Of a DNA stretch of 64,000 nucleotides, positions 10,513-55,822 are shown in pieces (the first letter of the stretch is position 1; each line of letters begins with the position of its first letter). The notes beneath the pieces are model-generated. The model did not search any database. It was not told the DNA's origin and was given only the letters and a program-made list of their open reading frames with translations. This stretch comes from Cocleimonas flava (lineage in GTDB: Bacteria; Pseudomonadota; Gammaproteobacteria; Thiotrichales; Thiotrichaceae). The translations under genes and the position numbers were made by a program. The stretch lies in NCBI RefSeq assembly GCF_004339015.1, contig NZ_SMFQ01000003.1, positions 248,001 through 312,000 on the forward strand, given 5' to 3'.

Positions 10513-10541
10513 GGCAGCCCCCTACTTACAGGCGTATTTTT
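10513..10541 (+). repeat. Dispersed CCCCCTACTT element, copy 1
   Basis: GGCAGCCCCCTACTTACAGG followed by CGTATTTTTA. It lies just after the cysteine-cluster gene, in sense orientation. The internal CCT-ACTTAC-AGG can form a very short hairpin before the T-run. This copy has CAGCCCCC in place of the CACCCCCC found in most others. Confidence 0.8.
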
Positions 10542-10620
10542 AGATAAGTAATAAATTACACAGTACTAGCCACTAGCATTAACCACTAGATAAAGCTCTT
10601 CAACAAAAATCTTATTCAAT

Positions 10621-10652
10621 AAAAAGGCCCTATCAAATGACAGGGCCTTTTT
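10621..10652. terminator. Bidirectional intrinsic terminator between convergent genes
   Basis: An 11-bp stem (AAAAAGGCCCT pairing with AGGGCCTTTTT) encloses a loop of about ten bases, giving a T-run on either strand. It sits between the plus-strand cysteine-cluster gene and the minus-strand barrel gene, so it can stop transcription from both sides. Confidence 0.9.
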
Positions 10653-10692
10653 TATTAATAGCGATAAAACTACCGTTGAAGGTAATCCTTAA

Positions 10693-11214
10693 CTAGAGAG
10701 TATCTACAGTTAAACCAGCGTTATAACTATCGAAATATTCATCTAACTGTTCGTGTCTCTGGTACTCAATGCGCACATCGATATTTTCTGTCACATTATA
10801 ATAGCCACCGACACCAACGAATGGATTTGTCTCTTCCACTCTTACACGTACATTATTCGATGAGACTTCGGTTCTGATTCGCTCTGCACCAACACGACCA
10901 TAGATGCCCGCACGTGGAGTGAGCGGGACATAACCCACAGCAGAGAATTGGATCGCGGTTGCTTCAAACTCGCGTTCAATGCCACCTTGTGAAATGGCAG
11001 TATCGCCAAAATCGGTATAACCAAGTTCTAAAGATACGTGCTTGCCGCTGCCAATGTATTTACCGACAGCCACGTTAAAACCCGCTTCGTCAAAATCATC
11101 ACCGTATTCTGCGTGCATACCGTTTGCTGCAAAATAAAAGTCATTGGCATGAGCCGTAGAAACGCCAGAAAGCAGAATCACGGAAAGTGTGGTACTCAAA
11201 AGTGTTTTATTCAT
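10693..11214 (-). CDS. Small outer-membrane beta-barrel protein (OmpA/Ail-like porin family)
   Basis: The product is 173 residues when started at the ATG at 11214. A TTG two codons upstream is also open but less likely, since a GGA lies about 8 bases before the ATG. A clear signal peptide (MNKTLLSTTLSVILLSG, ending in HA-N) is followed by alternating hydrophobic strands such as FYFAANGM, FNVAVGKYIG, VSLELGYTDFG, AGIYGRVGAERI and FVGVGGYYNV, the pattern of an eight-stranded barrel. The function is unknown. The protein ends in VDTL rather than the usual C-terminal aromatic residue. Confidence 0.75.
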   Translation of the reverse strand: MNKTLLSTTLSVILLSGVSTAHANDFYFAANGMHAEYGDDFDEAGFNVAVGKYIGSGKHVSLELGYTDFGDTAISQGGIEREFEATAIQFSAVGYVPLTPRAGIYGRVGAERIRTEVSSNNVRVRVEETNPFVGVGGYYNVTENIDVRIEYQRHEQLDEYFDSYNAGLTVDTL

Positions 11215-11334
11215 AATCAATCCATTGAAAATAATAAGTCTGGTAGCATAATATCAGACATTATTATGCCTTGAATGATCAAATATCTAGCAATTTCAAT
11301 GATTTGACTATTTTTTGAACAGTAGGGAGAGACT

Positions 11335-11365
11335 AAGTCACCCCCCTACTTTGGAGGACTTTTTT
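11335..11365 (+). repeat. Dispersed CCCCCCTACTT element, copy 2
   Basis: AAGTCACCCCCCTACTTTGG followed by AGGACTTTTTT. The arms AAGTC/GACTT pair around the core. An upstream AGTAGGG at about 11321 could instead pair with CCCTACT of the core, an alternative fold. Both flanking genes are on the minus strand, so this copy is antisense to them and cannot terminate either. Confidence 0.8.
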
Positions 11366-11447
11366 CTATTGAATCAAAACTAACGAAACAATTAATGGAA
11401 CAAATAGAAAATGATAATTTAGATTAAGGCATAGATTAAGTTTAAGA

Positions 11448-12959
11448 CTATGCCTTCTTTTGCAGAATGATTTCCTGCCATTCTTCAGGTCCAGTCTTGT
11501 GAACTGAAACACCTTTAGAATCAACAGCAACAGTCACTGGCATATCTTTTACATCAAACTCATAGATAGCTTCCATACCCATTTCTTCGAATGCCAGTAC
11601 TTTTGAACCGACGATCGCTTTAGAAACCAGATATGCAGCGCCGCCTACCGCCATCAAATAAACACTCTTGTGCTTCTTGATCGCTTCGATACCAGCGGGT
11701 CCACGCTCTGCTTTACCAATCATGCCGAGCAAGCCTGTTTCAGCTAGCATTTGTTCAGTGAACTTATCCATACGTGTAGATGTTGTAGGGCCAGCAGGAC
11801 CAACGACTTCATCACGAACAGGATCAACAGGTCCAACGTAATAAATGAATCTGTCTTTTAAGCTTACCGGTAGTTCTTCGCCAGCGTCCAGCATACTGGT
11901 CATGCGTTTATGTGCAGCATCACGACCCGTTAGGATCTTACCGTTAAGCAATAACACGTCGCCTGGCTTCCAGCTTTGGACTTCTTCATGCGTAATCGCA
12001 TCGATATCAACACGTTTAGCGGACTCACCCGCTTCATAACTAATATCAGGCCATACACTGCTATCAGGAGGCGTTAATACCGCAGGACCAGAACCATCAA
12101 GCGTGAAATGTATATGACGGGTTGCCGCACAGTTTGGAATCATACACACAGGCAATGACGCTGCATGTGTTGGGTAATCCAGAATTTTTACGTCTAAAAC
12201 CGTGGTTAAACCACCCAATCCTTGTGCGCCTATACCTAGATTGTTAACCGCATCCATAATTTCTAAACGCAATTCTTCAACTCTGTTTTGTGGACCACGA
12301 TCTCGTAATTCCTGGATATCGATTTCCTGCATTAATGATCGTTTTGCAAGAACTGCTGCTTTCTCTGCTGTACCGCCGACACCAATTCCTAATACACCCG
12401 GCGGACACCAACCAGAACCCATTGTTGGAACTGTTTTAACTACCCAATCGACCAGAGAATCGCTAGGGTTAAGCATCACCATTTTTGATTTGTTTTCAGA
12501 TCCGCCACCTTTAGCCGCTACCTGAACATCAATCTTGTCGCCTTTAACCATATTAAGATGAACTACGGCTGGCGTGTTGTCTTTGGTATTGGTTCTAGCG
12601 CCTAATGGATCAGCCATAATAGATGCGCGTAATTTGTTGTCTGGGTTGTTGTAAGCCTGGCGTGTTCCTTCATTCACCATTTCCTGAATATCCATCGAAG
12701 TGCTATCCCACTTCACATCCATACCCACATCAACAAAAACAGCCACAATGCCGGTATCCTGACAGATAGGTCGATGACCTTCAGCACACATACGTGAGTT
12801 CACTAAAATCTGAGTTAAAGCATCTTTAGCGGCAGGAGACTCTTCTCGCTCCCATGCGTTAGTCATGGCTCGTATAAAATCTTCACCATGGTAGTAAGAA
12901 ATAAATTGCAATGCATCTGCAATACTTGAAATAAAGTCAGCTTGTTTAATTATAGTCAT
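11448..12959 (-). CDS. fumA: Class I (iron-sulphur) fumarate hydratase
   Basis: This 503-residue single-chain class I fumarase catalyses reversible hydration of fumarate to malate in the TCA cycle. The N-terminal alpha region carries NSRMCAEGHRPICQDTG, the KGGGSENKSKM motif and a GSGWCPPGVLGIGVGG segment with the Cys expected of a [4Fe-4S] ligand. The C-terminal beta region carries GPTTSTRMDKF and the MAVGGAAYLVSKAI stretch. The length and fused alpha-beta arrangement fit the oxygen-sensitive family rather than FumC. No downstream operon partner is seen on the minus strand. Confidence 0.95.
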   Translation of the reverse strand: MTIIKQADFISSIADALQFISYYHGEDFIRAMTNAWEREESPAAKDALTQILVNSRMCAEGHRPICQDTGIVAVFVDVGMDVKWDSTSMDIQEMVNEGTRQAYNNPDNKLRASIMADPLGARTNTKDNTPAVVHLNMVKGDKIDVQVAAKGGGSENKSKMVMLNPSDSLVDWVVKTVPTMGSGWCPPGVLGIGVGGTAEKAAVLAKRSLMQEIDIQELRDRGPQNRVEELRLEIMDAVNNLGIGAQGLGGLTTVLDVKILDYPTHAASLPVCMIPNCAATRHIHFTLDGSGPAVLTPPDSSVWPDISYEAGESAKRVDIDAITHEEVQSWKPGDVLLLNGKILTGRDAAHKRMTSMLDAGEELPVSLKDRFIYYVGPVDPVRDEVVGPAGPTTSTRMDKFTEQMLAETGLLGMIGKAERGPAGIEAIKKHKSVYLMAVGGAAYLVSKAIVGSKVLAFEEMGMEAIYEFDVKDMPVTVAVDSKGVSVHKTGPEEWQEIILQKKA

Positions 12960-13340
12960 GGGATCTTATTAGTTTGATGATGTTAGAAAAAAGTAACGGT
13001 TAGTTAGTATGAATGTTATTGAAGTTAAAAGGTAATCTTTAGAATATACACTTATTAAATTACGCACAAAAACTTCTAAAATAACTATAGCATTAGAATT
13101 ATTTCCTACACTCATAAAAAATGAATAGTGACAATAAACTCAGTATCGATCTACTAAGGCTTGTCATATCGTATCCATACATTTTGATCTGCTTTATTAG
13201 TAATGAATAGCGTACTGTTTACGACAAAGATACTTAACGTATTACAAAATGATCACTCGTTAATTTCCAAAGTCACCCCCCTACTTACAGGCATTTTTTT
13301 AAATATCAATTAACAATGAAAGATACACTATGCTAAGGCA
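12960..13340. other. Divergent intergenic region, fumarase / DUF71
   Basis: This 381-base AT-rich region separates the minus-strand fumarase start from the plus-strand DUF71 gene and should hold both promoters, though I could not assign convincing -35/-10 pairs. It contains one dispersed CACCCCCCTACTT element (13269-13300), placed 5' of the DUF71 gene. Only very short open frames are present, the longest noticed being about 29 codons from about 13121 on the plus strand. Confidence 0.5.
13269..13300 (+). repeat. Dispersed CCCCCCTACTT element, copy 3
   Basis: AAAGTCACCCCCCTACTTAC followed by AGGCATTTTTTT. It lies between divergent genes, upstream of the DUF71 gene, so it cannot be the terminator of either neighbour. 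The only clear pairing is a 3-bp CCT/AGG. Confidence 0.82.
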
Positions 13341-14006
13341 ATGAAACAAAAAATACTCATGTCATGGAGCAGCGGCAAAGACAGTGCCTGGGCATTACAA
13401 CAACTGCTACAAAACCCAAACGTCGAAGTCGTCGGGTTATTCAGCACTATCAATAAAGACGCTGATCGAGTGGCAATGCATGGCGTAAGAGTCGAGTTAT
13501 TAGAAGCCCAGGCAGCAAGCATTGACTTACCACTGGAAATAATTGAAATCCCCGACCCTTGCAGTAATATCGACTACGAATCGATCATGTCAGACTTCAT
13601 CGAAACAGCCAAAAAGAAGCATATTGAATGTATTGCATTTGGTGATTTATACCTTGAAGATATCCGACGTTACCGAGAACATCAATTAGTTGGCACAGGC
13701 ATTGAAGCCATATTCCCGATATGGGGTTTAGATACCGATAATTTGTCCAGAACACTAATAGATAATGGCATCAAGGCTGTTATAAGCTGCGTCGATTCGA
13801 AACAACTCTCAGAAGACTTTGTCGGTAGAAAATACAACACTAACTTTCTACAAGATTAACCCGAAACCACTGACCCATGTGGAGAAAACGGTGAATTTCA
13901 CAGTTACGTGTATGACGCGCCAATGTTTAAACACGCTATAGAAATAACGCTTGGTAAAACATTTAAAAAAGACCAGTTTGTATACATTGATGTATTGCCC
14001 AAATAA
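13341..14006 (+). pseudogene. DUF71 / diphthine-ammonia-ligase-like ATP-binding protein interrupted by one in-frame stop
   Basis: The first 172 codons (13341-13856) encode a PP-loop ATPase of the Diphthami_syn_2 (DUF71) family: an MSWSSGKDSAWAL nucleotide-binding motif, VHGVR-like MHGVRVELL, and FGDLYLEDIRRYRE. Translation ends at TAA 13857-13859 after NTNFLQD. Reading on in the same frame gives P-E-T-T-D-P-C-G-E-N-G-E-F and 35 further residues to TAA at 14004. This is the conserved C-terminal motif (DPCGENGEFH) of the family, where a Leu is expected at the stop position. A single TTA-to-TAA change explains the break. It is either a recent pseudogene, a readthrough case or a sequencing error. 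The full length would be about 221 residues. Confidence 0.85.
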
Positions 14007-14013
14007 ATACACT

Positions 14014-14048
14014 AAAAAGTCACCCCCCTACTTTGGGGCACTTTTTTT
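14014..14048 (+). repeat. Dispersed CCCCCCTACTT element, copy 4 (strongest terminator-like copy)
   Basis: Arms AAAAAGT/ACTTTTT (7 bp) and an inner CCCC/GGGG enclose the core CACCCCCCTACTTT, followed by a T-run. It starts 8 bases after the restored DUF71 stop at 14006, in sense orientation, so it is a credible terminator for the full-length frame. Confidence 0.87.
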
Positions 14049-14319
14049 AATGCGTTTTTGACTGTTATTTAAGATCAAATAATAGAGATTAAAGTTTTAT
14101 TTATTTGTGTCTAGCTGCTTGTATCTGACCAGAGAAAATATAGGCGTTACTACAAATGTTGATATATCGACGTTTAATCAACTTGCGACTCAATTTTTAC
14201 GTGTTATTAGAATCAATTCATAAGCCATATTATTATAATCTATAGTAGGTTTTCTTGAGCTTATAACAAATGTGTTCTATATAGACGCACTATATTATTA
14301 TAAGAAGCAGGATTTTTGC
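14049..14319 (+). promoter_or_regulatory. icd upstream region with candidate -10
   Basis: This AT-rich leader holds a perfect TATAAT at 14234-14239, about 80 bases before the icd ATG. No good -35 hexamer was found at the right spacing. The icd ribosome binding site AGGA lies at about 14309-14312. Nothing else is recognisable here. Confidence 0.4.
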
Positions 14320-16708: not shown

Positions 16709-16739
16709 TAAGTCACCCCCCTACTTTTAAGCACTTTTT
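16709..16739 (+). repeat. Dispersed CCCCCCTACTT element, copy 5
   Basis: AAGTCACCCCCCTACTTTTA followed by AGCACTTTTT. Arms AAGT/ACTT pair. It lies in sense orientation after icd and about 70 bases before the RND adaptor gene. Confidence 0.82.
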
Positions 16740-16810
16740 ACCAAGCCTATATATTTCTCCTATAATCATGAAATATTAAAACAAAACAATTTTCTACCAA
16801 AGGATTTCTA

Positions 16811-21498: not shown

Positions 21499-21927
21499 GT
21501 AGTTTGTTATTTAGGTGAGGTCCCCCCCCTACTTTAACAAGCTTTTTTACTAAACTATTTCAGACAAATACCAAATTAATGTCAAAACTTTAAAATACCA
21601 ATAGCAAACCCATAGTAAACCAATATTAAGTACTCTCATCTGACAGTTAACTTGAACTAAAGTAGCCTTAAGTCAGACAAAGCATTACATAAATTAGCTA
21701 TTTTTTTCACCATCTATTAGCAGGCTTAGTAATAGCAGGTGGGACAACTATTTTAACCAGTTATGATTTTCTAAGCGATTGATACTTACGTATAAATATT
21801 CATTAAGTATCTCTATTTGTAATCTGCTATTGTTACCAGCTTTTTGTAGCTTGCCAGCTTAAACAAGCTATATTTAATCGACTGTTTTATTTAATCAGCT
21901 ATCCACTTTAATCAACTTAGAGTTTTA
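21499..21927. other. 429-base intergenic region with element copy 6
   Basis: Apart from the dispersed element at 21517-21548, this AT-rich region holds a 7-bp hairpin (TAGCTTG at 21847-21853 with CAAGCTA at 21864-21870) and several TTTAATCRRCT-like repeats near 21875-21915 just before the next ATG. No convincing gene or RNA was found. Confidence 0.5.
21517..21548 (+). repeat. Dispersed CCCCCCTACTT element, copy 6
   Basis: GAGGTCCCCCCCCTACTTTA then ACAAGCTTTTTT. The CAC before the C-run is replaced by TCC. It lies in sense orientation, about 20 bases after the channel gene. No clear pairing arms. Confidence 0.75.
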
Positions 21928-24451: not shown

Positions 24452-24493
24452 AATGTAAAGGCACCCCCCACCTTTGGGGCGTTTTTTTACATT
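24452..24493 (+). repeat. Dispersed element, copy 7 (CCCCCCACCTT variant with long arms)
   Basis: Core GCACCCCCCACCTTTGGGGC with an inner CCCC/GGGG stem, T-run, and outer arms AATGTAAA/TTTACATT (8 bp). It begins 20 bases after the CBM9-protein stop. The right arm overlaps the likely TTG start of the LysE-type gene, so the element is also that gene's translation-initiation region. Confidence 0.85.
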
Positions 24494-25153: not shown

Positions 25154-25188
25154 AATAGTCACCCCCCCCCCTACTTTAAGTGACTTTT
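25154..25188 (+). repeat. Dispersed element, copy 8 (longest C-run)
   Basis: Arms AGTCAC/GTGACT (6 bp) enclose an extended C-run plus TACTTTAA, followed by TTTT. It lies in sense orientation after the LysE-type gene and convergent to PPK2. The C-run is longer than in other copies, suggesting homopolymer slippage. Confidence 0.82.
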
Positions 25189-25325
25189 CATTTTGCTGTT
25201 TAAAATGACATAAGGAACTTATGCTTTGCGGAATGATATTACGTTTTTGTTTTTAGAAAACGTAAATAGAATTTATGCAGATCTAGGCACTTTTCTTATA
25301 ATCTAAAACAAACCACTTAATGAAT

Positions 25326-28343: not shown

Positions 28344-29594
28344 TTATTCATAACGCAAAGACTCAGCAGGTTGAACTTTAGCGGCACGACTTGCAGGATA
28401 TAATGTTGCTAAAATTGCGAGAACAAACGATGCGATTGAAATGCCTATGACTTGTTTGAAATCAACAACTGATGGAAATTTAGAACTAGCGTAGAATAAA
28501 TCCTGAGGCAATAACTCAATATTGAAGAGTGTTTCTATCCATTCAACAATTGTGCCGATATTCAGTGCCAGTAACACACCTAAAATCGCCCCGAGAATCG
28601 CACCGAACAAACCGATAATAATCCCCTGAACCATAAATATTCGTTTGACCTGTTTGGCCGACATACCTTGGGTACGTAGAATCGCGATATCAGCTTGCTT
28701 ATCATTAACTACCATCACCAGCGATGAAACCAGATTAAAAACAGCAACCAATACAATCAAAAACAGGATGAAGAACATCACTACTTTTTCAGTCTTCTGG
28801 ACTTGAAACAGGCTTTTGTTTTCTTGCCCCCAATCAGTGACCGTAAATTCATCACCTAGTTTTTTGGACAAACCATATGAAACTTCAGGCGCATCAAATA
28901 AATCGGTTAATTTTAAACGAATACCCGTTACATTATCTTTGGTTGAAAACAACTTGGAGGCGTCTTGCATATGTATAAACGCTGTCGCGCTGTCGTATTC
29001 AGCCATATTGATTTTATACACAGCAACCACGGTAAAGCGTTTACTTCTGGGAATCATGCCAGCGGGAGTGACTCTAAACCTTGGTGTTACAACCGTTAAC
29101 TTATCCCCTGGGAACACACCTAGTTGTTGCGCAAGTTCTACGCCTAAGGCAATACCATATCCACGCGGTTGAAGATCATCAAAACTGCCTTCCAGCATTC
29201 GATTATGCACACCCCCCACCTTTGGCTGCTCTTTTGGTAAAATTCCTTCGAGTAAAACGCCACGAAGTTCACCATTTGCGCTTAACATGACTTGATTTCT
29301 GATGAATGGTGCAGAGCCAATAACTTCTGGCATATCAACAAGTTCCTGCTGTTGTTTCCGCCAATCTGAGAGCAAACCGTTTGTCTCACTAATGGTGACA
29401 TGCGAAACCATGCTTAGTATTCTATCCCTAAGCTCTTTCTCGAACCCATTCATTACGGAAAGAACGGTAATAAGTACAAGAACCCCAAATAATATCCCAA
29501 GCATGGAAGCCAAGGAAATAAACGATATAAAGTTATTTTTGTGCTTTGAGCGTGTGTAACGCAAACCGACAAAGAGTTCTAATGGTTTAAACAT
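28344..29594 (-). CDS. lolC: Lipoprotein-releasing permease, LolC/LolE family (first gene of operon)
   Basis: This 416-residue permease has the same plan as its neighbour: N-terminal helix (SMLGILFGVLVLITVLSVMNGFEKEL), periplasmic domain, three C-terminal helices, ending VQPAESLRYE. The periplasmic TPAGMIPRSKRFTVV stretch is closer to LolC, but the C-terminal loop has LolE-like features, so the symbol is provisional. It is the promoter-proximal gene of a lolC-lolE-lolD unit, unlike the E. coli order lolC-lolD-lolE. It is divergent from the small secreted-protein gene at 29711. Confidence 0.88.
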   Translation of the reverse strand: MFKPLELFVGLRYTRSKHKNNFISFISLASMLGILFGVLVLITVLSVMNGFEKELRDRILSMVSHVTISETNGLLSDWRKQQQELVDMPEVIGSAPFIRNQVMLSANGELRGVLLEGILPKEQPKVGGVHNRMLEGSFDDLQPRGYGIALGVELAQQLGVFPGDKLTVVTPRFRVTPAGMIPRSKRFTVVAVYKINMAEYDSATAFIHMQDASKLFSTKDNVTGIRLKLTDLFDAPEVSYGLSKKLGDEFTVTDWGQENKSLFQVQKTEKVVMFFILFLIVLVAVFNLVSSLVMVVNDKQADIAILRTQGMSAKQVKRIFMVQGIIIGLFGAILGAILGVLLALNIGTIVEWIETLFNIELLPQDLFYASSKFPSVVDFKQVIGISIASFVLAILATLYPASRAAKVQPAESLRYE

Positions 29595-30070: not shown

Positions 30071-33000
30071 ATGACTAAAAAGTTTACCACTTACACGTGG
30101 GCGTTCCTTCCGTTCGTCTTCAGTTCAGCCGCAGTTCTTACATCACCTTCATTTGCTTCACCATCAGCATCACAACAATATCAAGATGGGCACTATGAAG
30201 ACGCCAGACAAGTAAGCCGGGCAAACCATGAATATGTAGGTGGTAGAACCAGTATAGGCGGAGGCATTACAGATGATGGCGATGTTGACGTTGAGTTCAA
30301 TCAGGTTATTTCTGAAGGTCAAAATCACAGCACTGGTGTTGGTTTGTGGGCCGGTTATGATCTAGAAGGCGACGATAAAGGTTTATTAGGTCGTGGTGTA
30401 CAAATGAATCACAATTGGGTATCACGTGATAAATTTGGTAATACTTCTCATGTGAATAAAGTATTTGCTGCTTACGATAAAAATGAAGCGGGTCACGATA
30501 AAGCTACAGTGGGTTATGGTCGCGAAAATCAGAATTTATTCTGGGATGCTCATGTCAGCAAAGGTTTATCAGGCAGAAAAGATTCAAGAATCATAGACGG
30601 TAAAACTGTGAGCGATCGCGCTTATGACTATGGTGTAGGTGGCAGTATTGGTAAATTTATACCAGATGCTAATGTACGTGTTCGTGCAGGCTTAGATCAT
30701 GAGTGGAGCGATAAAGTTGGCGCTGGAGAGAAAGATGCTCACAATACTACTTTATCTGCTGGATTAGAAAAATTCTTCCAGGGCACAGGTCACAGTGTAT
30801 CGGTTGATGTTTCCGGATCTAAACGAAGTGGCGGTTATAACGACGGTGCCAGTAGCGATGCTGATGTGAGTGGGCGTGTTGGTTATCGTTACGACTTTGG
30901 TAGTGCATTCCGCGCCGAATCAACAACACGTCGAGTTCGTGTCGAAGTACCGGGGAAAGCAACACCGCCTCGTTATGAACAACGCACACAATATAAACGT
31001 GTACCAACTTACAAAACAGTCCCTGTTTATGGAAATAAAAACGTTGGCACCGGAAAAAAACGTTTAGTTAAAAGCACTATGGAACTTGAAGGACAAACGT
31101 TCTTTAAACTCAACAGTTCTAAATTAATTCCTTCTGCAAAAACCCGTTTACTGCAAGTGGCTGCAGAAATTCGTAAAACAGGTTATAAGGGTAATATCCG
31201 AATCACTGGTAATACCTGTGGTTTAGGTGATGCCGTGTATGACCAGATTTTATCTGAGAAACGTGCAAATTCTGTAAAAAAATTCTTAATTAAAAACGGT
31301 TTCAACCCTGATCATCTGGTTTCTCGTGGTTTAGGTAAAGCTCATCCCAAATATCCTAACGTACCAGGACAAGGATTCAAAAATCGACGTGTTGATATCG
31401 AATATGTTACAGAATCCCAGCGTTATGTTGAAGACAAAACAGCACAACAAAGAGTACAAACAGGCACACGTCAAGTAGTCAGTGGTTTCAAAAATGTTCC
31501 CAATGGCACTAAAAATGTCATGATTGATAGCGGACAACCAGGAACACCACGCGTTATCTGGAAAACCGAAACAATCAAAAATTCACCGGCCTGGATTACC
31601 CGTGCGCTTCACAATAATATTAAGCACGATAGAAGTGTTAATACTTATCAAACTACTGAAGGTTCTACGACTCCCCTTAGCAATCAAGGCCCAGTAGCGA
31701 CTAATGATTCAACAAAAGTAGAATGTGGTCAATCAGTAGCAATTAATGTTCTTGCTAATGATACAGATGTCAATAACGACACATTAAATGTAACAAGCTT
31801 TACCCAGCCTTCTAATGGTACGGTTAGTCGTGGAGCAAATAACGAACTGATTTATACGGCTAATGGCGGTGGTTGTGGTGTTGATGATCAATTCACTTAT
31901 ACGATTTCTGATGGAAATGGTGGAACAGATACAGCAACAGTAACAATCTCGGTTGAAGCTGATGATAAAGTAGTCGCAGCAAATGAAGTAAGTGCAACAG
32001 AAGAAGGCGAAGCAGTGACTATCGATGTGCTCAGCAACGATGATGCCGATGCGACAATTACTCGTATCGTAGCTGCAGCTGCTAATGGTGTGGTTTCAAT
32101 TGTAAATGGCAAGTTGGTATATACCCCAAACCCGGGCTTCTATGGTACTGACAAGTTTACTTATGAAGTTAAAGATCCTAGTGGCAATGTTGACACCGCT
32201 ACGGTAACAGTAACCGTTAAAAAACCTGAAAATTCAGCACCTATTGCTGTGGGCGAAACTACACCGACACAAATGGGACAAGCCGTTACACTTAACATTC
32301 TAGATAATGACTCAGACCCTGAAAATGATACATTAACCATTACCAATGTCAGTGACCCAGCACATGGTACGGCAGCTATCAGAGGTGGTCAGATTATTTA
32401 TACGCCAGATACTGGTTATGTCGGTACTGACAGCTTTACTTACACCATTTCCGACGGCAATGGCGGCACTGCAACAGCGACTGAAACGATTACGATCACA
32501 GGTTCTACAAGTCTTAGCAACTCTGCACCAGTAGCGACAGATGACAATGCAACAACGCCTGTCAATCAAGCAGTGACACTGACTACCTTATCTAATGATA
32601 CAGACCCAGACGGTGATGCTTTAACAATATCTAACGTAAGCAACCCACAGAATGGAACCGCAGTCATTCGTGGTGGAGAAATCATATACACTCCGGATAC
32701 TGATTTTGTTGGTACTGAAACATTCACATACACAATATCTGATGGCAATGGCAATACTGCAACAGCGACTGAAACAGTAATTGTTACAGGCCCTGGTAAC
32801 GCAATACCGAATGCGGTCAATGATGCTAGTAAAGTGGCTTGTAATGGTGACGTTGTGATCAATGTGTTATCGAATGATACCGACACGGATGGAAACACCC
32901 TATCTGTCAGTAGTTTCACACAGCCAGCCAATGGTTCAGTAACTCAAGGATCTAATGGCACTCTGATCTATACCTCTAACGGTGCAGCTTGTGATATTGA

Positions 33001-34798
33001 TGATAAATTCACATACACAGTTTCAGACGGTAACGGCGGCTCAGATACAGCAACAGTGACTGTCGTTGTCGACCCTGCTGCTAACTCAGCTCCAGTTGCC
33101 GTGGATGACAATAAAACAACTTTACAGAATACTCCGGTAAGTTTTAATAGCTTAACGAATGATTCCGACCCAGAGAATGATACATTAACAATAACAGCTG
33201 TTGGCTCTCCTTCTCATGGTTCTGCCGAAATCAGTGGTAATCAAATCATATATACACCTGATAATGGTTATGTCGGTCAGGATTCATTTAGCTACACTAT
33301 TTCAGATGGCAAAGGCAACACTGCAACAGCAACTGAAACAGTTACAATTACTGCAGTAGTTGAGCCGAATAAGATGCCCGTTGCCAAGGATGACTCTGTA
33401 TCAACAAATCAAGACACTCCAGTAACCTTGAATACTTTATCAAATGATTCTGATCCTGATGGAGACACTCTCACAATCACCAGCGTAGGTAATCCATCTA
33501 ATGGTAAAGCGGTGATTAATAGCGATAAAATTGTGTATACACCAGAAGCAGGTTTTGTGGGCGAGGACTCTTTCACTTACTTTATTTCGGATGGTAAAGG
33601 TGGCACCGCAACAGCAATAGAGACAATTACAGTGAAAGCAGTAGTTGCACCTAATAAAGCACCCGTTGCAGTTGATGATGCTGTTACGACTGATCAGGAT
33701 ACCCCTGTTACGTTAAATACACTATCAAATGACTCTGACCCTGATGGTGACAGCTTGAAGATTACCAGTATTGGTAATCCATCACATGGTTCAGCTTCTA
33801 TAAATGGCGGTAAAATTGTCTACACACCAGATCCTGGTTATGTAGGAACAGATTCTTTCAGTTATGAAATATCTGATGGCAAAGGTGGTACTGCGACTGC
33901 TACTGAAACAATTACCATTAAAGCTGTAGTGATTCCGAATAAAGCACCTGTTGCAAAAGACGATTCGGCAACGACTCCGGAACAAACACCGGTGACTTTA
34001 ACCACGTTGTCTAACGACTCCGATCCCGATGGTGATAATTTGACCATTACAAATGTTGAAACTCCTGCAAACGGTACAGCGACAATTAATGGTCAAACCA
34101 TTGTTTATACACCGAAAGCTGGTTTTTCAGGGACGGACAAGTTCGAATATACTATTTCTGATGGTAATGGTGGTACAGCAACAGCGACAGAAACAGTCAT
34201 CGTTACTGCTGTAAATAAAGCGCCTAATGCATCTAATGATGTAGCAACAACAGGTTGTAGTGTTATTACGATTGATGTTTTAGGCAATGATACAGATCCA
34301 GATGGGGATACACTCAAATTAGTTAGCGTCACTGGTGCCAATCTTGGAACAGCTGTTGTATCAGGTAATAATATTGTATACACCCCTTCTAATACCTGTG
34401 GTAAAGGGAATACTGGTGTAGACAATCTTAGTTATACGATTTCAGATGGTAATGGTCACACAGCATCAGCTGGAGTCACTGTAAATGTTGAAGGTGTAAC
34501 TGGTACGTCTAGCATCAATGCTGAATCGGATGACGTTACAACAACAAAAGGAACACCTATTACCATTAATGCACTTGCCAATGATGGAGGTGAAGGTTTA
34601 AAAATCATCGCTGTAGATTCTGGTAGCAATGGTAATGCAGTGGTTAGTGGCAATAAAATCGTGTATACGCCTTTCGCTGACTTTACCGGAACAGAAAGTA
34701 TCTGGTATGACATTATCGATGAAAATGGGCACAATGATTCTGCACTAATCGTCATTTTTGTTGAGGAAGGTTGTCCTACAGGTACTAAATGTAACTAA
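30071..34798 (+). CDS. Giant outer-membrane protein: beta-barrel, OmpA domain and 11 cadherin/Ig-like repeats
   Basis: The product has 1575 residues. Residues 1-35 form a signal peptide; about 45-285 is strand-rich with alternating GVGLWAGYDL, NKVFAAYDKN and VGYGRENQN-type strands, likely a barrel. About 342-443 is an OmpA-like peptidoglycan-binding domain (FFKLNSSKLIPSAKTRLL, LSEKRANSVKKFL, NRRVDIEYV). From about 538 to the end there are 11 tandem domains of roughly 85-95 residues with the Ig/cadherin-like signature (P-V-A-x-D-D, then V-L-x-N-D-x-D-x-D-x-D-x-L, then Y-T-P-x-x-G-F-x-G-x-D-x-F-x-Y-x-I-S-D-G). The D-x-D-x-D clusters suggest calcium binding. It ends in a Cys-containing tail (EEGCPTGTKCN). 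It is probably an adhesin or envelope stalk. Repeats 1, 5 and 10 carry Cys pairs not seen in the others. Confidence 0.87.
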   Translation: MTKKFTTYTWAFLPFVFSSAAVLTSPSFASPSASQQYQDGHYEDARQVSRANHEYVGGRTSIGGGITDDGDVDVEFNQVISEGQNHSTGVGLWAGYDLEGDDKGLLGRGVQMNHNWVSRDKFGNTSHVNKVFAAYDKNEAGHDKATVGYGRENQNLFWDAHVSKGLSGRKDSRIIDGKTVSDRAYDYGVGGSIGKFIPDANVRVRAGLDHEWSDKVGAGEKDAHNTTLSAGLEKFFQGTGHSVSVDVSGSKRSGGYNDGASSDADVSGRVGYRYDFGSAFRAESTTRRVRVEVPGKATPPRYEQRTQYKRVPTYKTVPVYGNKNVGTGKKRLVKSTMELEGQTFFKLNSSKLIPSAKTRLLQVAAEIRKTGYKGNIRITGNTCGLGDAVYDQILSEKRANSVKKFLIKNGFNPDHLVSRGLGKAHPKYPNVPGQGFKNRRVDIEYVTESQRYVEDKTAQQRVQTGTRQVVSGFKNVPNGTKNVMIDSGQPGTPRVIWKTETIKNSPAWITRALHNNIKHDRSVNTYQTTEGSTTPLSNQGPVATNDSTKVECGQSVAINVLANDTDVNNDTLNVTSFTQPSNGTVSRGANNELIYTANGGGCGVDDQFTYTISDGNGGTDTATVTISVEADDKVVAANEVSATEEGEAVTIDVLSNDDADATITRIVAAAANGVVSIVNGKLVYTPNPGFYGTDKFTYEVKDPSGNVDTATVTVTVKKPENSAPIAVGETTPTQMGQAVTLNILDNDSDPENDTLTITNVSDPAHGTAAIRGGQIIYTPDTGYVGTDSFTYTISDGNGGTATATETITITGSTSLSNSAPVATDDNATTPVNQAVTLTTLSNDTDPDGDALTISNVSNPQNGTAVIRGGEIIYTPDTDFVGTETFTYTISDGNGNTATATETVIVTGPGNAIPNAVNDASKVACNGDVVINVLSNDTDTDGNTLSVSSFTQPANGSVTQGSNGTLIYTSNGAACDIDDKFTYTVSDGNGGSDTATVTVVVDPAANSAPVAVDDNKTTLQNTPVSFNSLTNDSDPENDTLTITAVGSPSHGSAEISGNQIIYTPDNGYVGQDSFSYTISDGKGNTATATETVTITAVVEPNKMPVAKDDSVSTNQDTPVTLNTLSNDSDPDGDTLTITSVGNPSNGKAVINSDKIVYTPEAGFVGEDSFTYFISDGKGGTATAIETITVKAVVAPNKAPVAVDDAVTTDQDTPVTLNTLSNDSDPDGDSLKITSIGNPSHGSASINGGKIVYTPDPGYVGTDSFSYEISDGKGGTATATETITIKAVVIPNKAPVAKDDSATTPEQTPVTLTTLSNDSDPDGDNLTITNVETPANGTATINGQTIVYTPKAGFSGTDKFEYTISDGNGGTATATETVIVTAVNKAPNASNDVATTGCSVITIDVLGNDTDPDGDTLKLVSVTGANLGTAVVSGNNIVYTPSNTCGKGNTGVDNLSYTISDGNGHTASAGVTVNVEGVTGTSSINAESDDVTTTKGTPITINALANDGGEGLKIIAVDSGSNGNAVVSGNKIVYTPFADFTGTESIWYDIIDENGHNDSALIVIFVEEGCPTGTKCN

Positions 34799-34860: not shown

Positions 34861-35119
34861 GCAAAAAAACAGATAGATTTATCAAATCCACTTTTGACTT
34901 TGGCACCCCCCTACTTACAGGCGTTTTTTGAGCCTTACTTTTTTATCTATATGCTTGTAGAAATGTTTAATCATTGTTCTAACTATCTTCTAATCATGTT
35001 CTAAATCAATTGCAAAACATTGATTTAACGATTAATTTCACATAATAAATACACATTTACTGTTTTAATTAAATAGCTGTTCTAAACTTGGATAATATTT
35101 ACTTCGAGTTTAATGATTC
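34861..35119. other. Intergenic region before the peptide transporter
   Basis: This is an AT-rich region holding element copy at 34901-34929 and the presumed promoter of the ABC ATPase gene; no clear -35/-10 pair was assigned. Together with the preceding terminator the gap from the Ig gene stop is 321 bases. Confidence 0.45.
34901..34929 (+). repeat. Dispersed CCCCCCTACTT element, copy 9
   Basis: TGGCACCCCCCTACTTACAG followed by GCGTTTTTT. In sense orientation after the Ig gene, downstream of its own hairpin terminator. Only the short CCT/AGG pairing is available. Confidence 0.83.
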
Positions 35120-40685: not shown

Positions 40686-41213
40686 CTATTTTCCACCCCC
40701 CCGGTTATGGGCGGTTTTTTTAAAGAAGTTCGATGGTCTTCTATCACCAGAAGAACTGGCTCTGTTTCGATTAGAATTTGACGCACGGTTACGATGGCTG
40801 TGATTGCGCTTTACACCACCAGTTCTCATCTTATGAGGCTGTCCACCTTTGACTCTATTTGGATGCCCGTTACGTACACGGTTCGGGTTGCCACCTCGCA
40901 CTCGATTTGGCTGTCCATTTTTCACACGATTATGATTACGCTTAACCTGGTTACGATTGCGGTGTTTATTGTAGTTCTTATTTTTGTGTCCGTGATAACG
41001 AGTCGTGTAAGAACGCGTATAACGATTCGGGTATCGGTTAAAGTAATATGGATCGTAACCGATATAATCGTAATCAGAATAATACGTATCGTAATACGGA
41101 CGATAATAAGTAGACGAACCAGAGGTAACATATCCAGCTTCTGAATACGGGGGTGCAGAGGTACAACCATTAACGAGAAATGCAAAAATAACTACTATGC
41201 CGAGCTTATACAT
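40686..41213 (-). CDS. Arg/Asn-rich lipoprotein with octapeptide repeats
   Basis: The ATG at 41213 is chosen because AAGGA (41226-41222) lies 8 bases upstream; in-frame ATGs at 41237 and 41220 lack such a site. It gives 175 residues. A hydrophobic stretch ends in LVNGC, a lipobox, so the protein is lipid-anchored. The mature part is Tyr-rich (YYRPYYDTYYSDYDYIGYDPYYFNRYP), then strongly basic with four octapeptides N-R-V-[KR]-[NG]-G-[QNH]-P followed by HKMRTGG. The last 11 residues come from the dispersed repeat element. The function is unknown; binding to an anionic polymer such as peptidoglycan, LPS or nucleic acid would fit the charge. Confidence 0.7.
   Translation of the reverse strand: MYKLGIVVIFAFLVNGCTSAPPYSEAGYVTSGSSTYYRPYYDTYYSDYDYIGYDPYYFNRYPNRYTRSYTTRYHGHKNKNYNKHRNRNQVKRNHNRVKNGQPNRVRGGNPNRVRNGHPNRVKGGQPHKMRTGGVKRNHSHRNRASNSNRNRASSSGDRRPSNFFKKTAHNRGGGK
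40690..40721 (+). repeat. Dispersed element, copy 10 (CGGTTATGGG variant) overlapping lipoprotein 3' end
   Basis: TTCCACCCCCCCGGTTATGG followed by GCGGTTTTTTT. The loop differs from the TACTT consensus. In sense orientation after the permeases, it is simultaneously the last codons (K-K-T-A-H-N-R-G-G-G-K-stop) of the convergent lipoprotein gene. Confidence 0.75.
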
Positions 41214-41424: not shown

Positions 41425-41432
41425 TCGATTTA

Positions 41433-41462
41433 TATCACCCCCCTACTTACAGGCATTTTTTT
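41433..41462 (+). repeat. Dispersed CCCCCCTACTT element, copy 11, forming the 3' end of bioA
   Basis: TATCACCCCCCTACTTACAG followed by GCATTTTTTT. Read on the minus strand, the A-run and following bases are the final codons of bioA (K-N-A-C-K-stop). Antisense to the flanking genes, both of which are on the minus strand. Confidence 0.83.
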
Positions 41463-42759
41463 CTTTTTGCCATTCACTAAGCACGTCATATATGGCAGAA
41501 GTCAAAACTCTAAGCTCAGCCGATTCCATAATGTAAGCTGGCATCAAATACACCAATTTACCAAATGGTCTTAACCAAACGCCTTTTTCTGTAAAGCGTG
41601 GTTGTGACCATGTTGTATCTAACGGATCATGCAATTCAACGACACCAATCGCCCCTTTAACCCGGACTTCTTTTACACAGTCTAATTGAATACAAAGCGA
41701 TAGTTCGGCTTTAAGTTGTGCTGATATCGCTTTAACTCTATCTTGCCATGGTGAGCTTAATAACAGCTCAATACTGGCATTAGCGACGCTACAAGCGAGT
41801 GGGTTGCCCATAAAGGTTGGGCCGTGCATTAATAGACCTTTGCCGTCTGCTTCGATGCCATCAACTACTTTACGGGATGTTAGTGTGGCGGCTAATGTCA
41901 TCGTGCCTCCTGTAAGTGCTTTACCCACGGTTAAAATATCGGGTTGGATATTGGCTTGCTCGTAAGCAAATAGCGTTCCAGTTCGACCGAAGCCCGTAGC
42001 AATTTCATCGAGAATTAATAACACGTCGTATTGGTCGCAGAGTTGTCGAACAGCTTGTAAATATTCCACGTGATAGAAACGCATCCCACCCGCGTTTTGT
42101 ACCATGGGTTCTATGATTACTGCAGCTATCTGTTTATGATTTTGTTCGAGCTTGGTTTTGAAGTCATTGATGAATTCAGGCTTCCAGATAACTTCTTCGC
42201 CACTTTCGGTTAAAGTCTGCGGCGCTTCGGCAAAGATGTGTTGAGGTAATACGCCTGTAAACATTTCGTGCATGCCATTAACGGGATCACACACTGCCAT
42301 GCCACCAAAGGTATCGCCATAGTAACCGTTTCTTGCAGTAAGTAGCTTGGTTTTTTGCGTTTGGCCTTGGGCAAAACAATATTGAAGCGCCATTTTTATA
42401 GCGACTTCCACCGCGACTGAGCCAGAATCTGCCAGAAAAACATGTTGTAAATTGGCACAGGTGATATCGACAAGTTTTTTGCCTAATGTCACCGCAGGTT
42501 CGTGGGTCAAACCGCCAAACATAACGTGCGACATTTTTTGGCTTTGATCAATGATCGCCTGATTCAAAACAGGATGATTGTAACCATGGATGGTTGACCA
42601 CCACGACGACATGCCATCGATGAGTTTTCTTCCATCAGTCAATTCAAGGCGAACACCTTGTGCAGAAGCGACCGAAAGTACGGGGGTGGGTTTAGAAAAA
42701 CTCGAATAAGGATGCCATAGGTGTTTGGCATCGAGTGCTAAAATTTCTTCCTGATTCAT
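41443..42759 (-). CDS. bioA: Adenosylmethionine-8-amino-7-oxononanoate aminotransferase
   Basis: This 438-residue PLP enzyme of biotin synthesis uses S-adenosylmethionine as amino donor to make 7,8-diaminopelargonate. The N-terminal LWHPYSSFSKP, the DGMSSWWSTIHGYNHP segment, LLILDEIATGFGRTG and the PLP-lysine region ILTVGKALTGGTM are diagnostic. It stands alone; no bioBFCD genes are adjacent. The normal C-terminus is extended or replaced by a short tail (E-K-N-A-C-K) encoded by the dispersed repeat. Confidence 0.96.
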   Translation of the reverse strand: MNQEEILALDAKHLWHPYSSFSKPTPVLSVASAQGVRLELTDGRKLIDGMSSWWSTIHGYNHPVLNQAIIDQSQKMSHVMFGGLTHEPAVTLGKKLVDITCANLQHVFLADSGSVAVEVAIKMALQYCFAQGQTQKTKLLTARNGYYGDTFGGMAVCDPVNGMHEMFTGVLPQHIFAEAPQTLTESGEEVIWKPEFINDFKTKLEQNHKQIAAVIIEPMVQNAGGMRFYHVEYLQAVRQLCDQYDVLLILDEIATGFGRTGTLFAYEQANIQPDILTVGKALTGGTMTLAATLTSRKVVDGIEADGKGLLMHGPTFMGNPLACSVANASIELLLSSPWQDRVKAISAQLKAELSLCIQLDCVKEVRVKGAIGVVELHDPLDTTWSQPRFTEKGVWLRPFGKLVYLMPAYIMESAELRVLTSAIYDVLSEWQKEKNACK

Positions 42760-47264: not shown

Positions 47265-47708
47265 ATATCTATAACCACCCTGTTTCAGAGTTATCAGTTA
47301 TATAGTTTTAAAAAAGTGCCTATAAGTAGGGGGGTGTGTTATTAAACCGAGACACCAAATAGCTATAGTTGTGCAGCTATCATTACCAAGCTTAGATCAC
47401 ATACTTATTTCGCTTCCTCACTGATATGGAAACAACAATAAAATAACAGCTATTTTTTTCCAATGCGTTTAAACGAAACCACAATGAAACCACAATAAGG
47501 ACAGAACAAAAGCTAGAGTTAAACTATTCTGAACTATTTGTCGCCCCTACTCTCCTTAAGACGTTAAAGGGGTTTTATCTTGCCAGTTCTATTTCAAAAA
47601 CTTATATTGCACATCAACAAATACAAATATGTATCAACGTGTAATGACATACGTAAACTTTTATCTGACTCTTTCATTAAATCAGCGACGAATACAGGGG
47701 TAAATAGT
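47265..47708. other. 444-base gap between the two solute-binding genes
   Basis: It contains element copy 12 (47309-47338), a CCCCT/AGGGG hairpin with four T at about 47544-47576 that may be a degenerate copy of the element, and two AAACCACAAT direct repeats near 47480-47497. An open frame reaches back to 47580, but its first 43 codons look like non-coding DNA. Confidence 0.5.
47309..47338 (-). repeat. Dispersed CCCCCCTACTT element, copy 12
   Basis: Plus strand: AAAAAAGTGCCTATAAGTAG followed by GGGGGTG. On the minus strand the core is CACCCCCCTACTTATAGG with a 4-bp CCTA/TAGG hairpin before the T-run. It follows a plus-strand gene, so it is antisense to it. Confidence 0.85.
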
Positions 47709-48482: not shown

Positions 48483-48517
48483 ACACCTGTAAAAACCGCC
48501 TATAAGTAGGGAGGTGT
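48483..48517 (-). repeat. Dispersed element, copy 13 (CTCCCTACTT variant)
   Basis: Minus-strand core CACCTCCCTACTTATAGG followed by CGGTTTTT. Outer ACACCT/AGGTGT arms (6 bp) enclose the whole element including the T-run. Follows copy B of the solute-binding gene in antisense orientation. On the plus strand GGGAGGTG resembles a strong Shine-Dalgarno sequence but only a two-codon frame follows. Confidence 0.8.
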
Positions 48518-48628
48518 ATAACAATAAATGTATTAATTTCCTAAGACACCTCTTATCTTATAGATTTCATAACACCCTGTTTTTCCTTTATTATTTAAAA
48601 TACCTCATATACAAAATAATAAAAATCC

Positions 48629-50232: not shown

Positions 50233-50266
50233 AAAAATAAGCCTATAAGTAGGGGGGTGGCTTATT
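50233..50266 (-). repeat. Dispersed CCCCCCTACTT element, copy 14 (8-bp arms)
   Basis: Arms AATAAGCC/GGCTTATT (8 bp, perfect) enclose the minus-strand core ACCCCCCTACTTATA, followed by TTTTT on the minus strand. It forms a good terminator for minus-strand transcription, although the flanking genes are both on the plus strand. Confidence 0.88.
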
Positions 50267-51083: not shown

Positions 51084-51113
51084 AAAAAACTCGCTATAAG
51101 TGGGGGGGTGTCT
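51084..51113 (-). repeat. Dispersed element, copy 15 (CCCCCCCACTT variant)
   Basis: Minus-strand core CACCCCCCCACTTATAGC followed by GAGTTTTTT. It lies between the short ankyrin gene and DUF1415. A GTG inside it is in frame with DUF1415 but is not a credible start. Confidence 0.82.
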
Positions 51114-51126
51114 TTACAATACAGCG

Positions 51127-53189: not shown

Positions 53190-53193
53190 TTTC

Positions 53194-55611
53194 TTACTTG
53201 AGTCGTAATGCATTTAACACAACCAATAGCGAACTCATAGACATACCAATTGCTGCCATCCAGGGTGTAATAAAACCCATGGCAGCAATGGGTACTGCAA
53301 TAACATTATAGATAATCGCCCAACTAAAATTCTGATGGATAACGGTTTGCATACGCTTAGACAAGCTTATCGACGCAGGAATCTGATTCAGGTCCTCACT
53401 CAATAAAATCATATCTGCACTGGCTTGAGCCAGCTGCGAGCCTTTACCCATAGCAATAGACACATTAGCTGTGGCGAGCACTGGCGCATCATTCACGCCA
53501 TCACCAACCATCGCTATCACTTCACCTTTTACTTGCAAGGCTTGCACATGATTGAGCTTATCAGCGGGTAGTAATTTCGCCTGATAGTTTTTTATACCGA
53601 GTGTTTCTGCCACTGATTTTACCGCGGCTTCATTGTCGCCGCTTATTAGACTCACATCGATGCCAGCTTGTAGTAATGATTGTATCGCAGACTTTGATTC
53701 TTCTCGTACCTCATCTTGCAGATGGAAAGCCGCCAACCAATGACCTTGCTTGCCTAAATAGACAGTAGAAATGGGAGTATCGATAACGTGATCTAACTTA
53801 CTATCTTGCAAATCATGATTAGCTAACTGATTTACATAGTGATAAGACCCTAAGCGATACTCTTCACCTTGATGAAATCCAACCACACCCTTACCCGATA
53901 CCGCAGACAAGTTTTCGAATACCTGATGGCTACTGCTCGTTTCTGAAAGTGCTTTCGCTAAGGGGTGTTCGGATGCCACTTCGAGTCCTGCCGCTAATTG
54001 TTTGCATCGTGTTTCATTACTCTCACCCAGAACATCAATACCAATGAGTTGATGTCTCCCATGTGTCAATGTGCCTGTTTTGTCGAAAATCACGTGTGTG
54101 ACTTTACTTAGTGTTTCCAGTGCATGGCCGCGGGTGGTGAGCACGCCTTTTTGTGTCAGATTACCCGTTGTTGCCGTTAAAGCGGCTGGAGTCGCCAATG
54201 ACAGAGCGCAAGGGCAAGTAATCACCAGTACAGATAAAGCTACCCAGAAGGCACGTGATGGATCTATAAACCACCATGCGATAAAAACCACTAAAGCGAC
54301 AGCGAGTAATGCCAGCACAAACCAGGCGGCACCTTTATCGGCAAACTTTGCCAGATTAGGTTTTTCACTTTGGGCTCTATCCAATAAACGGATGATAGAA
54401 GACAGCATAGTGCTATCGCCCAACTTCATGACCTGCATGGTCAATGGGCTTTCTACATTCAGGGTACCACCGATAAGCTCATCACCGATCTGTTTTTGTA
54501 GTGGCATATTCTCGCCGGTGAGTAGCGATTCATTGACACTGCTCGACCCTTCGACGACTTTACCATCGGCTGGTATTGTCTCGCCGGGCTTAATAATCAC
54601 TCTATCATCCAGTGATAATTCATTCGCAGCGATTACATTCTGGATTTCATTACCCTTTTCATCTTTTTCTAAACGGGTGGCTGTTTGTGGCAGCAATCTT
54701 ACTAAGGCATCAGCCACCTGCCCGGCCTTGTGCCTAACTCCCATCTCAAAGAAGCGTCCCAGCAACAAAAAGAAGGTAAACATCACAACCGAATCAAAAT
54801 ACACTTCACCAGTATTAGTGACCGTAGCCCAGATACTTGCCAGATAGGCACTACCAATGGCAATGGACACAGGTACATCCATACCAAAATGACGTCTCTT
54901 TAGATCACGCCAGGCAGAGGTAAAAAACACCCGCGATGAATAAAAAACCACGGGTGTTGTAATGATCAAACTAATCCAGCGCAAGAAATGCAACATGGAT
55001 TCAGACATGTCCGTGTCTTCACCAATATAAATAGCAATTGCCGGCATCATTACCTGCATCATTCCCATACCAGCAAGCGCAATGCGTCTTAGCGCAATGG
55101 ATTTTTCTTTCTTCTGCAGAGTTTCCATGCGACCAGGATCAAAAGGATGTGCACTATAGCCAATATCAACAATCGCTTGTAAAACATCGCTGAGTTTAAT
55201 TTGATCATTATTCCATTTTAGACTAGCCCGACTTGTTGAATAATTTATGCGGAACTCAATAACACCGGGTAACGCTAATACATGCTTTTCGTTTAACCAG
55301 ACACAGGCGGCACAAACAATGCCTTCCAAAACAAGGGATGCTTCACGAATAGTGCCGTCTTCTGAATGCACAAAACTTTTTTGTAAGGACTCATTGTCGT
55401 AAACAACAAGTTCCTCTGGGATTAAATCTTCTGCTTTTTTGGAGTTAGTCGTACGGTGTTTGTAAAAATCTGTAAGACCGTTTTCTACGATGGCTTCAGC
55501 AACCGCTTTACAACCCGTGCAACACATTGGCTGTTGCTTATCGTTGATAACAACATAATAGGAAGAGCCATTTGGAACAGGGAGTCCACAGTGAAAACAA
55601 TCTTGTGACAT
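53194..55611 (-). CDS. ccoI: Copper-transporting P1B-type ATPase CcoI
   Basis: This 805-residue pump supplies copper for cbb3 oxidase assembly. An N-terminal Cys-rich metal-binding domain (DCFHCGLPVPNG, MCCTGCKAVAEA), an HMA domain with GIVCAACVW, about eight helices, TGEN phosphatase motif, the transmembrane CPC (TCPCALSLATP), DKTGTLT phosphorylation site and GDGVNDAPVLA hinge are all present. It is convergent with rimK and its stop lies only about 5 bases from the rimK stop. Its place after ccoG and ccoH supports the CcoI assignment over a general CopA. Confidence 0.94.
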   Translation of the reverse strand: MSQDCFHCGLPVPNGSSYYVVINDKQQPMCCTGCKAVAEAIVENGLTDFYKHRTTNSKKAEDLIPEELVVYDNESLQKSFVHSEDGTIREASLVLEGIVCAACVWLNEKHVLALPGVIEFRINYSTSRASLKWNNDQIKLSDVLQAIVDIGYSAHPFDPGRMETLQKKEKSIALRRIALAGMGMMQVMMPAIAIYIGEDTDMSESMLHFLRWISLIITTPVVFYSSRVFFTSAWRDLKRRHFGMDVPVSIAIGSAYLASIWATVTNTGEVYFDSVVMFTFFLLLGRFFEMGVRHKAGQVADALVRLLPQTATRLEKDEKGNEIQNVIAANELSLDDRVIIKPGETIPADGKVVEGSSSVNESLLTGENMPLQKQIGDELIGGTLNVESPLTMQVMKLGDSTMLSSIIRLLDRAQSEKPNLAKFADKGAAWFVLALLAVALVVFIAWWFIDPSRAFWVALSVLVITCPCALSLATPAALTATTGNLTQKGVLTTRGHALETLSKVTHVIFDKTGTLTHGRHQLIGIDVLGESNETRCKQLAAGLEVASEHPLAKALSETSSSHQVFENLSAVSGKGVVGFHQGEEYRLGSYHYVNQLANHDLQDSKLDHVIDTPISTVYLGKQGHWLAAFHLQDEVREESKSAIQSLLQAGIDVSLISGDNEAAVKSVAETLGIKNYQAKLLPADKLNHVQALQVKGEVIAMVGDGVNDAPVLATANVSIAMGKGSQLAQASADMILLSEDLNQIPASISLSKRMQTVIHQNFSWAIIYNVIAVPIAAMGFITPWMAAIGMSMSSLLVVLNALRLK

Positions 55612-55660
55612 ACGTGAGTGTGCTTATCCGTAATTGAGAGATTGTTGTGAGAATGAATTT

Positions 55661-55693
55661 AAAAAAGTGGCTATAAGTGGGGGAGTGGCTTTT
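55661..55693 (-). repeat. Dispersed element, copy 16
   Basis: Plus strand AAAAAAGTGGCTATAAGTGG then GGGAGTGGCTTTT. Outer AAAAG/CTTTT arms pair. Minus-strand core is CTCCCCCACTTATAGCC. It is in sense orientation after ccoH on the minus strand. Confidence 0.78.
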
Positions 55694-55790
55694 CTATTTT
55701 TTATAAGCGCCACAAAGACCGATCGTAGATTGTTACAGGCTCGTTGATTTGCAATAGTCATGCTGGGCAGTATGTCCATTCCAGAGAATA

Positions 55791-55822
55791 AACACACCCC
55801 CCTACTTTGAAGCATTTTTTTA
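55791..55822 (+). repeat. Dispersed CCCCCCTACTT element, copy 17
   Basis: AACACACCCCCCTACTTTGA followed by AGCATTTTTTT. Antisense to the flanking minus-strand genes and inverted relative to copy 16 about 100 bases away. No long arms. Confidence 0.83.

Follow-up and report, generated by a model that had tools for sequence, protein, structure and literature searches.

The 64,000-nucleotide stretch of the Cocleimonas flava genome analyzed here (the window; contig C2:248001-312000 of the 4.49-Mb genome G000) contains a dispersed, mainly intergenic element of about 30 bp, in which a C-rich core is followed by a run of T. The original prediction listed 17 copies. Using a position weight matrix (PWM) built from the genome to score element copies, we find 16 of the 17, with starts within a few bases of those listed and PWM scores of 24-49. 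Third-order Markov-simulated sequence contained no element and no PWM score as high as 6. Genes were called with our own simple hexamer model, which places start sites and small genes only approximately; the predicted tally of nine sense, seven antisense and one divergent copy is the same in these gene calls.

The copies were compared with contig L031, which together with L079 and the sampled contigs of genome G007 is apparently one genome ('Uncultured Cocleimonas sp. isolate 4-1410'). The isocitrate dehydrogenase of the window is 96% identical to that of this isolate (L031), and its next relatives are Cocleimonas or Thiotrichaceae metagenome-assembled genomes. The leftmost copy, located in a convergent gap, carries the core variant GCCCCCTACTT (10510..10541, + strand, PWM 36.8) and has an orthologous copy in L031. 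It is followed by an antisense copy in a tandem gap (11334..11365, + strand, PWM 44.7), whose L031 ortholog has a different 3′ arm, and by a copy in a divergent gap (13269..13300, + strand, PWM 47.5) that is common to L031. The next copy, sense in a tandem gap (14016..14047, + strand, PWM 48.7), is absent from L031 along with the preceding gene. A 172-aa open reading frame (ORF; 13341-13859) lies between these last two same-strand elements (13269-14047), where L031 has one element (~9755) without the ORF stretch; the difference looks like a deletion or a gain between direct repeats.

Four more plus-strand copies are common to L031: a sense copy 3′ of the isocitrate dehydrogenase gene (16709..16740, PWM 43.1), a sense copy in a tandem gap with CC for CA ahead of the C-run (21517..21548, PWM 26.0), another sense copy in a tandem gap with an ACCTT variant (24457..24488, PWM 41.9), and a copy in a convergent gap with a long C-run (25159..25190, PWM 24.4). 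Further along are a sense copy in a tandem gap (34899..34930, + strand, PWM 39.8) and an antisense copy that overlaps the 3′ end of a gene on the minus strand (41431..41462, + strand, PWM 41.6). Four minus-strand copies are antisense in tandem gaps (47310..47341, PWM 45.4; 48490..48521, PWM 35.6; 50233..50264, PWM 42.3; 51084..51115, PWM 43.2). The last two form a head-to-head pair, one sense (55661..55692, − strand, PWM 38.4) and the other antisense (55790..55821, + strand, PWM 43.7). The one listed copy that is doubtful lies in a convergent gap (40689..40720, + strand, PWM 27.5): its C-run, GGC and T-run are present and GGTTA replaces the core TACTT. It may be an ordinary terminator-like sequence. 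Two weak matches within genes were absent from the original list, one antisense to its gene (29204..29235, + strand, PWM 18.2) and one on the same strand as its gene (42662..42693, − strand, PWM 20.8).

Abundance and anatomy of the element

The exact 13-mer CACCCCCCTACTT occurs 721 times genome-wide (529 + 192), far above the approximately 30 copies set in advance as a threshold for a real family, and its reversed control is absent (n = 0). In the 1.54 Mb of readable G000 sequence in which elements were counted we identified 417 (0.27/kb), which extrapolates to an estimate of ~1,200 full elements per genome. Within the window, matches to CCCCCCTACTT with at most two mismatches number 24, versus 6.7 expected, a count reached by 0 of 100 shuffles.

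A consensus from ~380 strong G000 copies begins with an A-tract (−5 to −3) and G at −2, followed by the core at positions 0-12, C-A-C-C-C-C-C-C-(T/C)-A-C-T-T. On the 3′ side of the core, positions 13-20 are variable and include RGGC, and positions 21-26 are T6; outside this consensus there is no clear conservation among the same copies. Perfect cores (n = 257) outnumber singly mismatched cores (n = 95), of which 57 carry the T8C variant and 38 are others.

Neighboring elements are mostly opposed when they are close. Among 205 elements, 11 neighboring pairs are tail-to-tail and six head-to-head versus one direct, and the 58 copies held in close pairs show no net polarity (30:28). Compared with random placement, spacing is more regular in two of four stretches (p = 0.002 and 0.014; p = 0.06 and 0.28 in the other two).

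The proposal that this is no described family stands within the sources covered. Rfam 15 at gathering score gave no match within the window. A literature search with the core letters matched 41 papers, and none of the 10 listed dealt with a bacterial repeat; subscription journals are largely outside its coverage, and an earlier description is possible.

A linear DNA motif

The original prediction placed the conserved C-rich sequence in the loop and 5′ arm of a hairpin, with matched outer arms in some copies. The conservation is confirmed, and the hairpin is not. Across 280 pairs of 5′-side and 3′-side positions we found no clear pairing above independence, and the mean minimum free energy does not change when copies exchange their 3′ arms (−4.48 versus −4.53 kcal/mol, p = 0.77). 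The mean folding energy of the elements is near that of random intergenic DNA (−4.0 kcal/mol), and matched outer arms are no more frequent than chance gives. The element is a linear DNA motif.

These results bear directly on whether the copies form an intrinsic terminator family with a conserved C-rich loop, partly used antisense. The T-run does lie 3′ of a C/G-rich stretch, some copies fold, opposed pairs could terminate as those of known uptake sequences do, and element density is highest in convergent gaps (4.4/kb, compared with 1.6/kb in tandem and 0.8/kb in divergent gaps). However, the arms lack covariation, folding energy is independent of matched arms, and copies in tandem gaps show no preference for sense (100 sense, 100 antisense), their orientation being set instead by the replication arm. 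The dialects of two relatives described below, G002 and G009, have the T-tracts and lack the GGC arm. On the covariation, arm-swap and orientation tests we reject the terminator reading as very unlikely, in agreement with the initial view that the copies are something other than plain terminators. The order of densities (convergent > tandem > divergent) would be expected of any promoter-avoiding element. A small RNA or anti-Shine-Dalgarno mimicry of CACCCCCCUACUU was dropped because the C-rich strand has no sense preference, and a sigma-54 promoter was set aside, a TGGCAC-like overlap seen by eye being its only sign.

Strand bias and replication

Most elements (86%) are located outside genes; 57 of 417 (14%) are within them, a 33-fold depletion per base. 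Inside a given replication arm, gene direction makes no difference to the strand of the element (55:24 and 59:27), and orientation therefore lends no support to the regulatory function first proposed. Instead, the C-rich strand of the element is found preferentially on the C-rich, presumably lagging, chromosomal strand (242+:92− at negative GC skew, 33+:50− at positive). With replication arms set from GC-skew switches (C1 ~960 kb, C2 ~130 kb) rather than from oriC or dif, orientation by arm is 292:125 overall and 262:97 for singletons.

Intergenic C/G on the favored strand is 1.11, and 1.11^9 = 2.6; GC skew acting on a motif with nine Cs may thus explain most of the strand ratio. Isolated C-runs that are not part of an element have a strand ratio of only ~1.3. 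In divergent gaps, single elements are distributed 38:2 on one replication strand versus ~2.8:1 elsewhere between genes (p = 0.002).

This pattern raises the question of a polar replication or segregation motif, similar to KOPS or Chi, with its G-rich strand on the leading strand, that a DNA translocase, a recombinase or a nucleoid protein would read inside the cell. Orientation tracks the replication arm rather than gene direction, and both the singletons and the divergent gaps are polarized. C/G skew raised to the ninth power already gives a ratio similar to that observed, which weakens polarity as proof of a replication function. The close pairs carry no net polarity, the in-gene depletion is not what short polar motifs would lead us to expect, and the core varies among sister species, which a conserved housekeeping reader would not allow. 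We regard a polar motif of this type as the main alternative to the reading proposed below, and as unlikely. A related possibility, which we consider more doubtful still, is a genus-specific, dialect-forming chromosomal address, not an uptake tag, that a rapidly evolving intracellular factor acting with replication polarity would recognize. Such an address would account for the scarcity of copies in genes and for a strand bias that peaks in divergent gaps.

Conservation and origin of copies

Comparison of G000 with isolate 4-1410 (L031, L079 and G007) identified 20 elements in the same place and on the same strand, four only in G000 and six only in the isolate. Most of the unshared elements lie within one rearranged region. 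Over 11 diverged intergenic pairs, identity is 98% in the core and 92% in the T-tract, compared with 59% in the spacer between them and 58-67% in the flanks. Two blocks are therefore held while the rest drifts.

In-gene copies encode recurring peptides, e.g. EKxPxSGGV. The copies in the genes for LpxH, FabD, a D-lactate dehydrogenase homolog and an ABC ATPase align without gaps to solved homologs: these four copies originated by substitution and not by insertion.

The other suggestion of the original prediction, a mobile element, is not supported by these data. A short repeat spread by a transposase, such as a REP or a miniature inverted-repeat transposable element, would account for many near-identical, mainly intergenic copies, for their occurrence as singles and opposed pairs, and for clade-specific variants. 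The G-rich strand also carries GTAG, as REPs do. Yet the element has no palindrome, most copies occupy orthologous sites in a second species with flanks drifting around a fixed core, and the in-gene copies are ungapped relative to their homologs. Of the six core-rich genomes, five (G000, G003, G006, G008 and G011) have no PF01797 (RAYT/Y1_Tnp), and on this distribution we reject a RAYT/REP element. Spread by a transposase appears very unlikely.

Dialects across Cocleimonas

Based on 12 Cocleimonas genomes and 45 relatives outside the genus, we find the exact core to be abundant in six of the 12 (74-777 copies) and absent from all 45 relatives. Genus members without the G000-type core mostly have a related core instead. 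G002 and G009 use ACCCATCCCCCC (657 exact copies in G002 and 618 in G009, against 0-1 in other members of the genus), with T-tracts and no GGC arm. The pattern is GCCA-C6/7-T(A)CTTTTTCG..GTTTTGTA in G001 and G010, GTACA-C6-nACTTTTT in G006, and GACA-C6-TACTTTT in G003 and G011. Outside G000 and G007 these consensuses come mostly from 6-15 copies each, and that of G001 from five. The layout common to the dialects is C6-8, a T-tract ~3-4 nt later and a second T-tract ~10 nt further, with ~5 nt separating the two tracts; in G000 the first T-tract is short (TT plus T or A).

A generic pattern of this layout (C6, short gap, T3, 6-10 nt, T4, with overlaps included in the count) occurs hundreds of times in nine of the 12 genus genomes, 1-17 times in G001, G004 and G005, and at background level in other genera. 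A ComEC tree strongly supports the pairs G000 with G007, G008 with G011, G002 with G009, and G001 with the element-poor G004. Judged from these sequences, the dialects follow the ComEC tree.

A search of 229 genomes of the class with an extended pattern matched only one genome beyond Cocleimonas. This genome, G232, belongs to another gammaproteobacterial family and has two G006-like copies within 1.8 kb (G232:C7:103840-105642) and none elsewhere, possibly a transferred fragment of Cocleimonas type. Such a transfer would parallel the 'peregrine' DNA uptake sequences (DUS) of Frye et al. (PMC3630211).

Other repeats and genes

We also observed a second abundant repeat, CTGTCCTCTGTC, in G002 contigs, e.g. 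L232-L236 (its 10-mers occur 17-24 times in 41 kb), where it often adjoins the ACCCATCCCCCC element. Contigs L242-L244 of G009, a genome with Y1 transposases, contain the repeat CGTAGGTTGGGCTG (7-8 copies in 37 kb), which may be a true REP-like family. Within the window, the AT-rich 10-mers TAACTTAACT and TTAAGTTAAG are over-represented, each occurring seven times in the 64 kb. The window also encodes a protein of 1575 aa (30071-34798), probably a large surface protein, that combines tandem-95 repeats with an OmpA-like domain. Glucose-6-phosphate isomerase has four matches in G000 (C2:250246, C3:555174, C3:755687, C4:672042), one of them with an in-frame stop that is also found in G007.

An uptake tag as the candidate function

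In the literature covered, uptake sequences are known from Pasteurellaceae and Neisseriaceae only (PMC1626085, PMC7811141), and other transformable bacteria are without known ones (PMC1626085). The uptake signal sequences (USS) of the former and the DUS of the latter have ~1 copy/kb, a somewhat regular distribution without orientation bias, some close opposed pairs, and perfect copies far in excess of singly mismatched ones (Redfield 2006, PMC1626085). They are found across a family and prefer non-coding DNA yet have many in-gene copies, and USSs have two AT-rich segments at roughly helical spacing and originate through substitution (PMC1626085). Perfect copies exceeding near-misses, opposed pairs, in-gene origin by substitution, dialects that follow phylogeny and two T-tracts all recur in the Cocleimonas element. 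The absence of any match to the element in viral contigs is also counted for an uptake tag.

We propose, with a probability of about 0.62, that the element is a DNA-uptake tag of Cocleimonas, analogous to USS and DUS and probably evolved independently of both. A receptor on the cell surface, belonging to the type IV pilus or competence system, would prefer DNA with the linear motif, reading the A-tract, CA, C6, (T/C)ACTT, ~8 nt and T6. Each uptake and recombination of DNA from relatives would favor tagged alleles. Base substitutions would thereby build up copies at sites that are free to vary, chiefly in intergenic DNA and close to the 3′ ends of genes, and clade-specific dialects would arise as the receptor drifts. 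The element looks and evolves like an uptake sequence, and by analogy it would bias uptake, be read by a protein and be maintained by uptake drive. That it works like a USS is better supported than that it is one.

Matches to the uptake machinery are found across the genus (PilQ and ComEA in 12 of 12 genomes, ComEC and DprA in 11 of 12 each). PF12019 matches, present in 12 of 12 genomes, were withdrawn as candidates for the DNA-binding pilin FimT; the G000 copy (C1:567669) is part of a G-H-I-J operon for type II secretion.

Several observations weigh against this proposal. The uptake genes are also present in the element-poor G004 and G005, and hence do not discriminate and show capacity only. 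No receptor for the motif was found. Density is 0.27/kb versus ~1/kb for USS/DUS, and 14% of copies lie in genes versus 65% and 35% (Bakkali 2007, PMC1939737). The orientation bias has no counterpart in USS/DUS (PMC1626085), and GC skew predicts a similar overall ratio; the bias in divergent gaps, at 38:2, is above that prediction. A one-orientation uptake preference would produce a chromosome-wide orientation bias (Bakkali 2007, PMC1939737), and for this reason the strand bias is worth testing.

If the uptake reading is true, marine Thiotrichaceae would be a third bacterial group with uptake tags, and the dialects would offer a new panel in which to look for the receptor. Natural transformation would then be implied for a genus in which it is apparently unstudied. 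The listed Cocleimonas papers are, by their titles, mostly ecological surveys. A strand-biased uptake sequence would allow the strand specificity of uptake or integration to be tested. An unrelated core joined to the USS-like layout of a core and two T-tracts would suggest that this layout reflects the physics of DNA entry.

Comparison with known systems

Like REP/BIME sequences with their RAYTs, the Cocleimonas elements are abundant short intergenic repeats that occur as singles and pairs in genome-specific variants; unlike them, they have no palindrome, ungapped in-gene copies and stable orthologous sites, and most element-rich genomes have no RAYT. They share with KOPS and Chi the preference of the G-rich strand for the leading strand, and differ in being longer and in having T-tracts, strong exclusion from genes, species dialects and opposed pairs.

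With the Neisseriaceae DUS they have in common dialects that follow phylogeny and keep an inner part fixed, numerous opposed pairs and strays in unrelated genomes (PMC3630211). The DUS is continuous and without T-tracts (PMC12616744), and the Cocleimonas dialects differ more from each other, sharing only the C-run and the T-tracts. The Pasteurellaceae USS (Hin-USS AAGTGCGGT, Apl-USS ACAAGCGGT) has the same arrangement, in which a linear core has two T-rich tracts on its 3′ side, spaced by roughly one helical turn. It is likewise present in hundreds to thousands of copies with perfect copies far exceeding singly mismatched ones, opposed pairs, in-gene origin by substitution and clade dialects (PMC1626085, PMC12616744). 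The Cocleimonas element differs in its C-run core, which is unrelated to GCGG, and in its lower density, fewer in-gene copies and strand bias.

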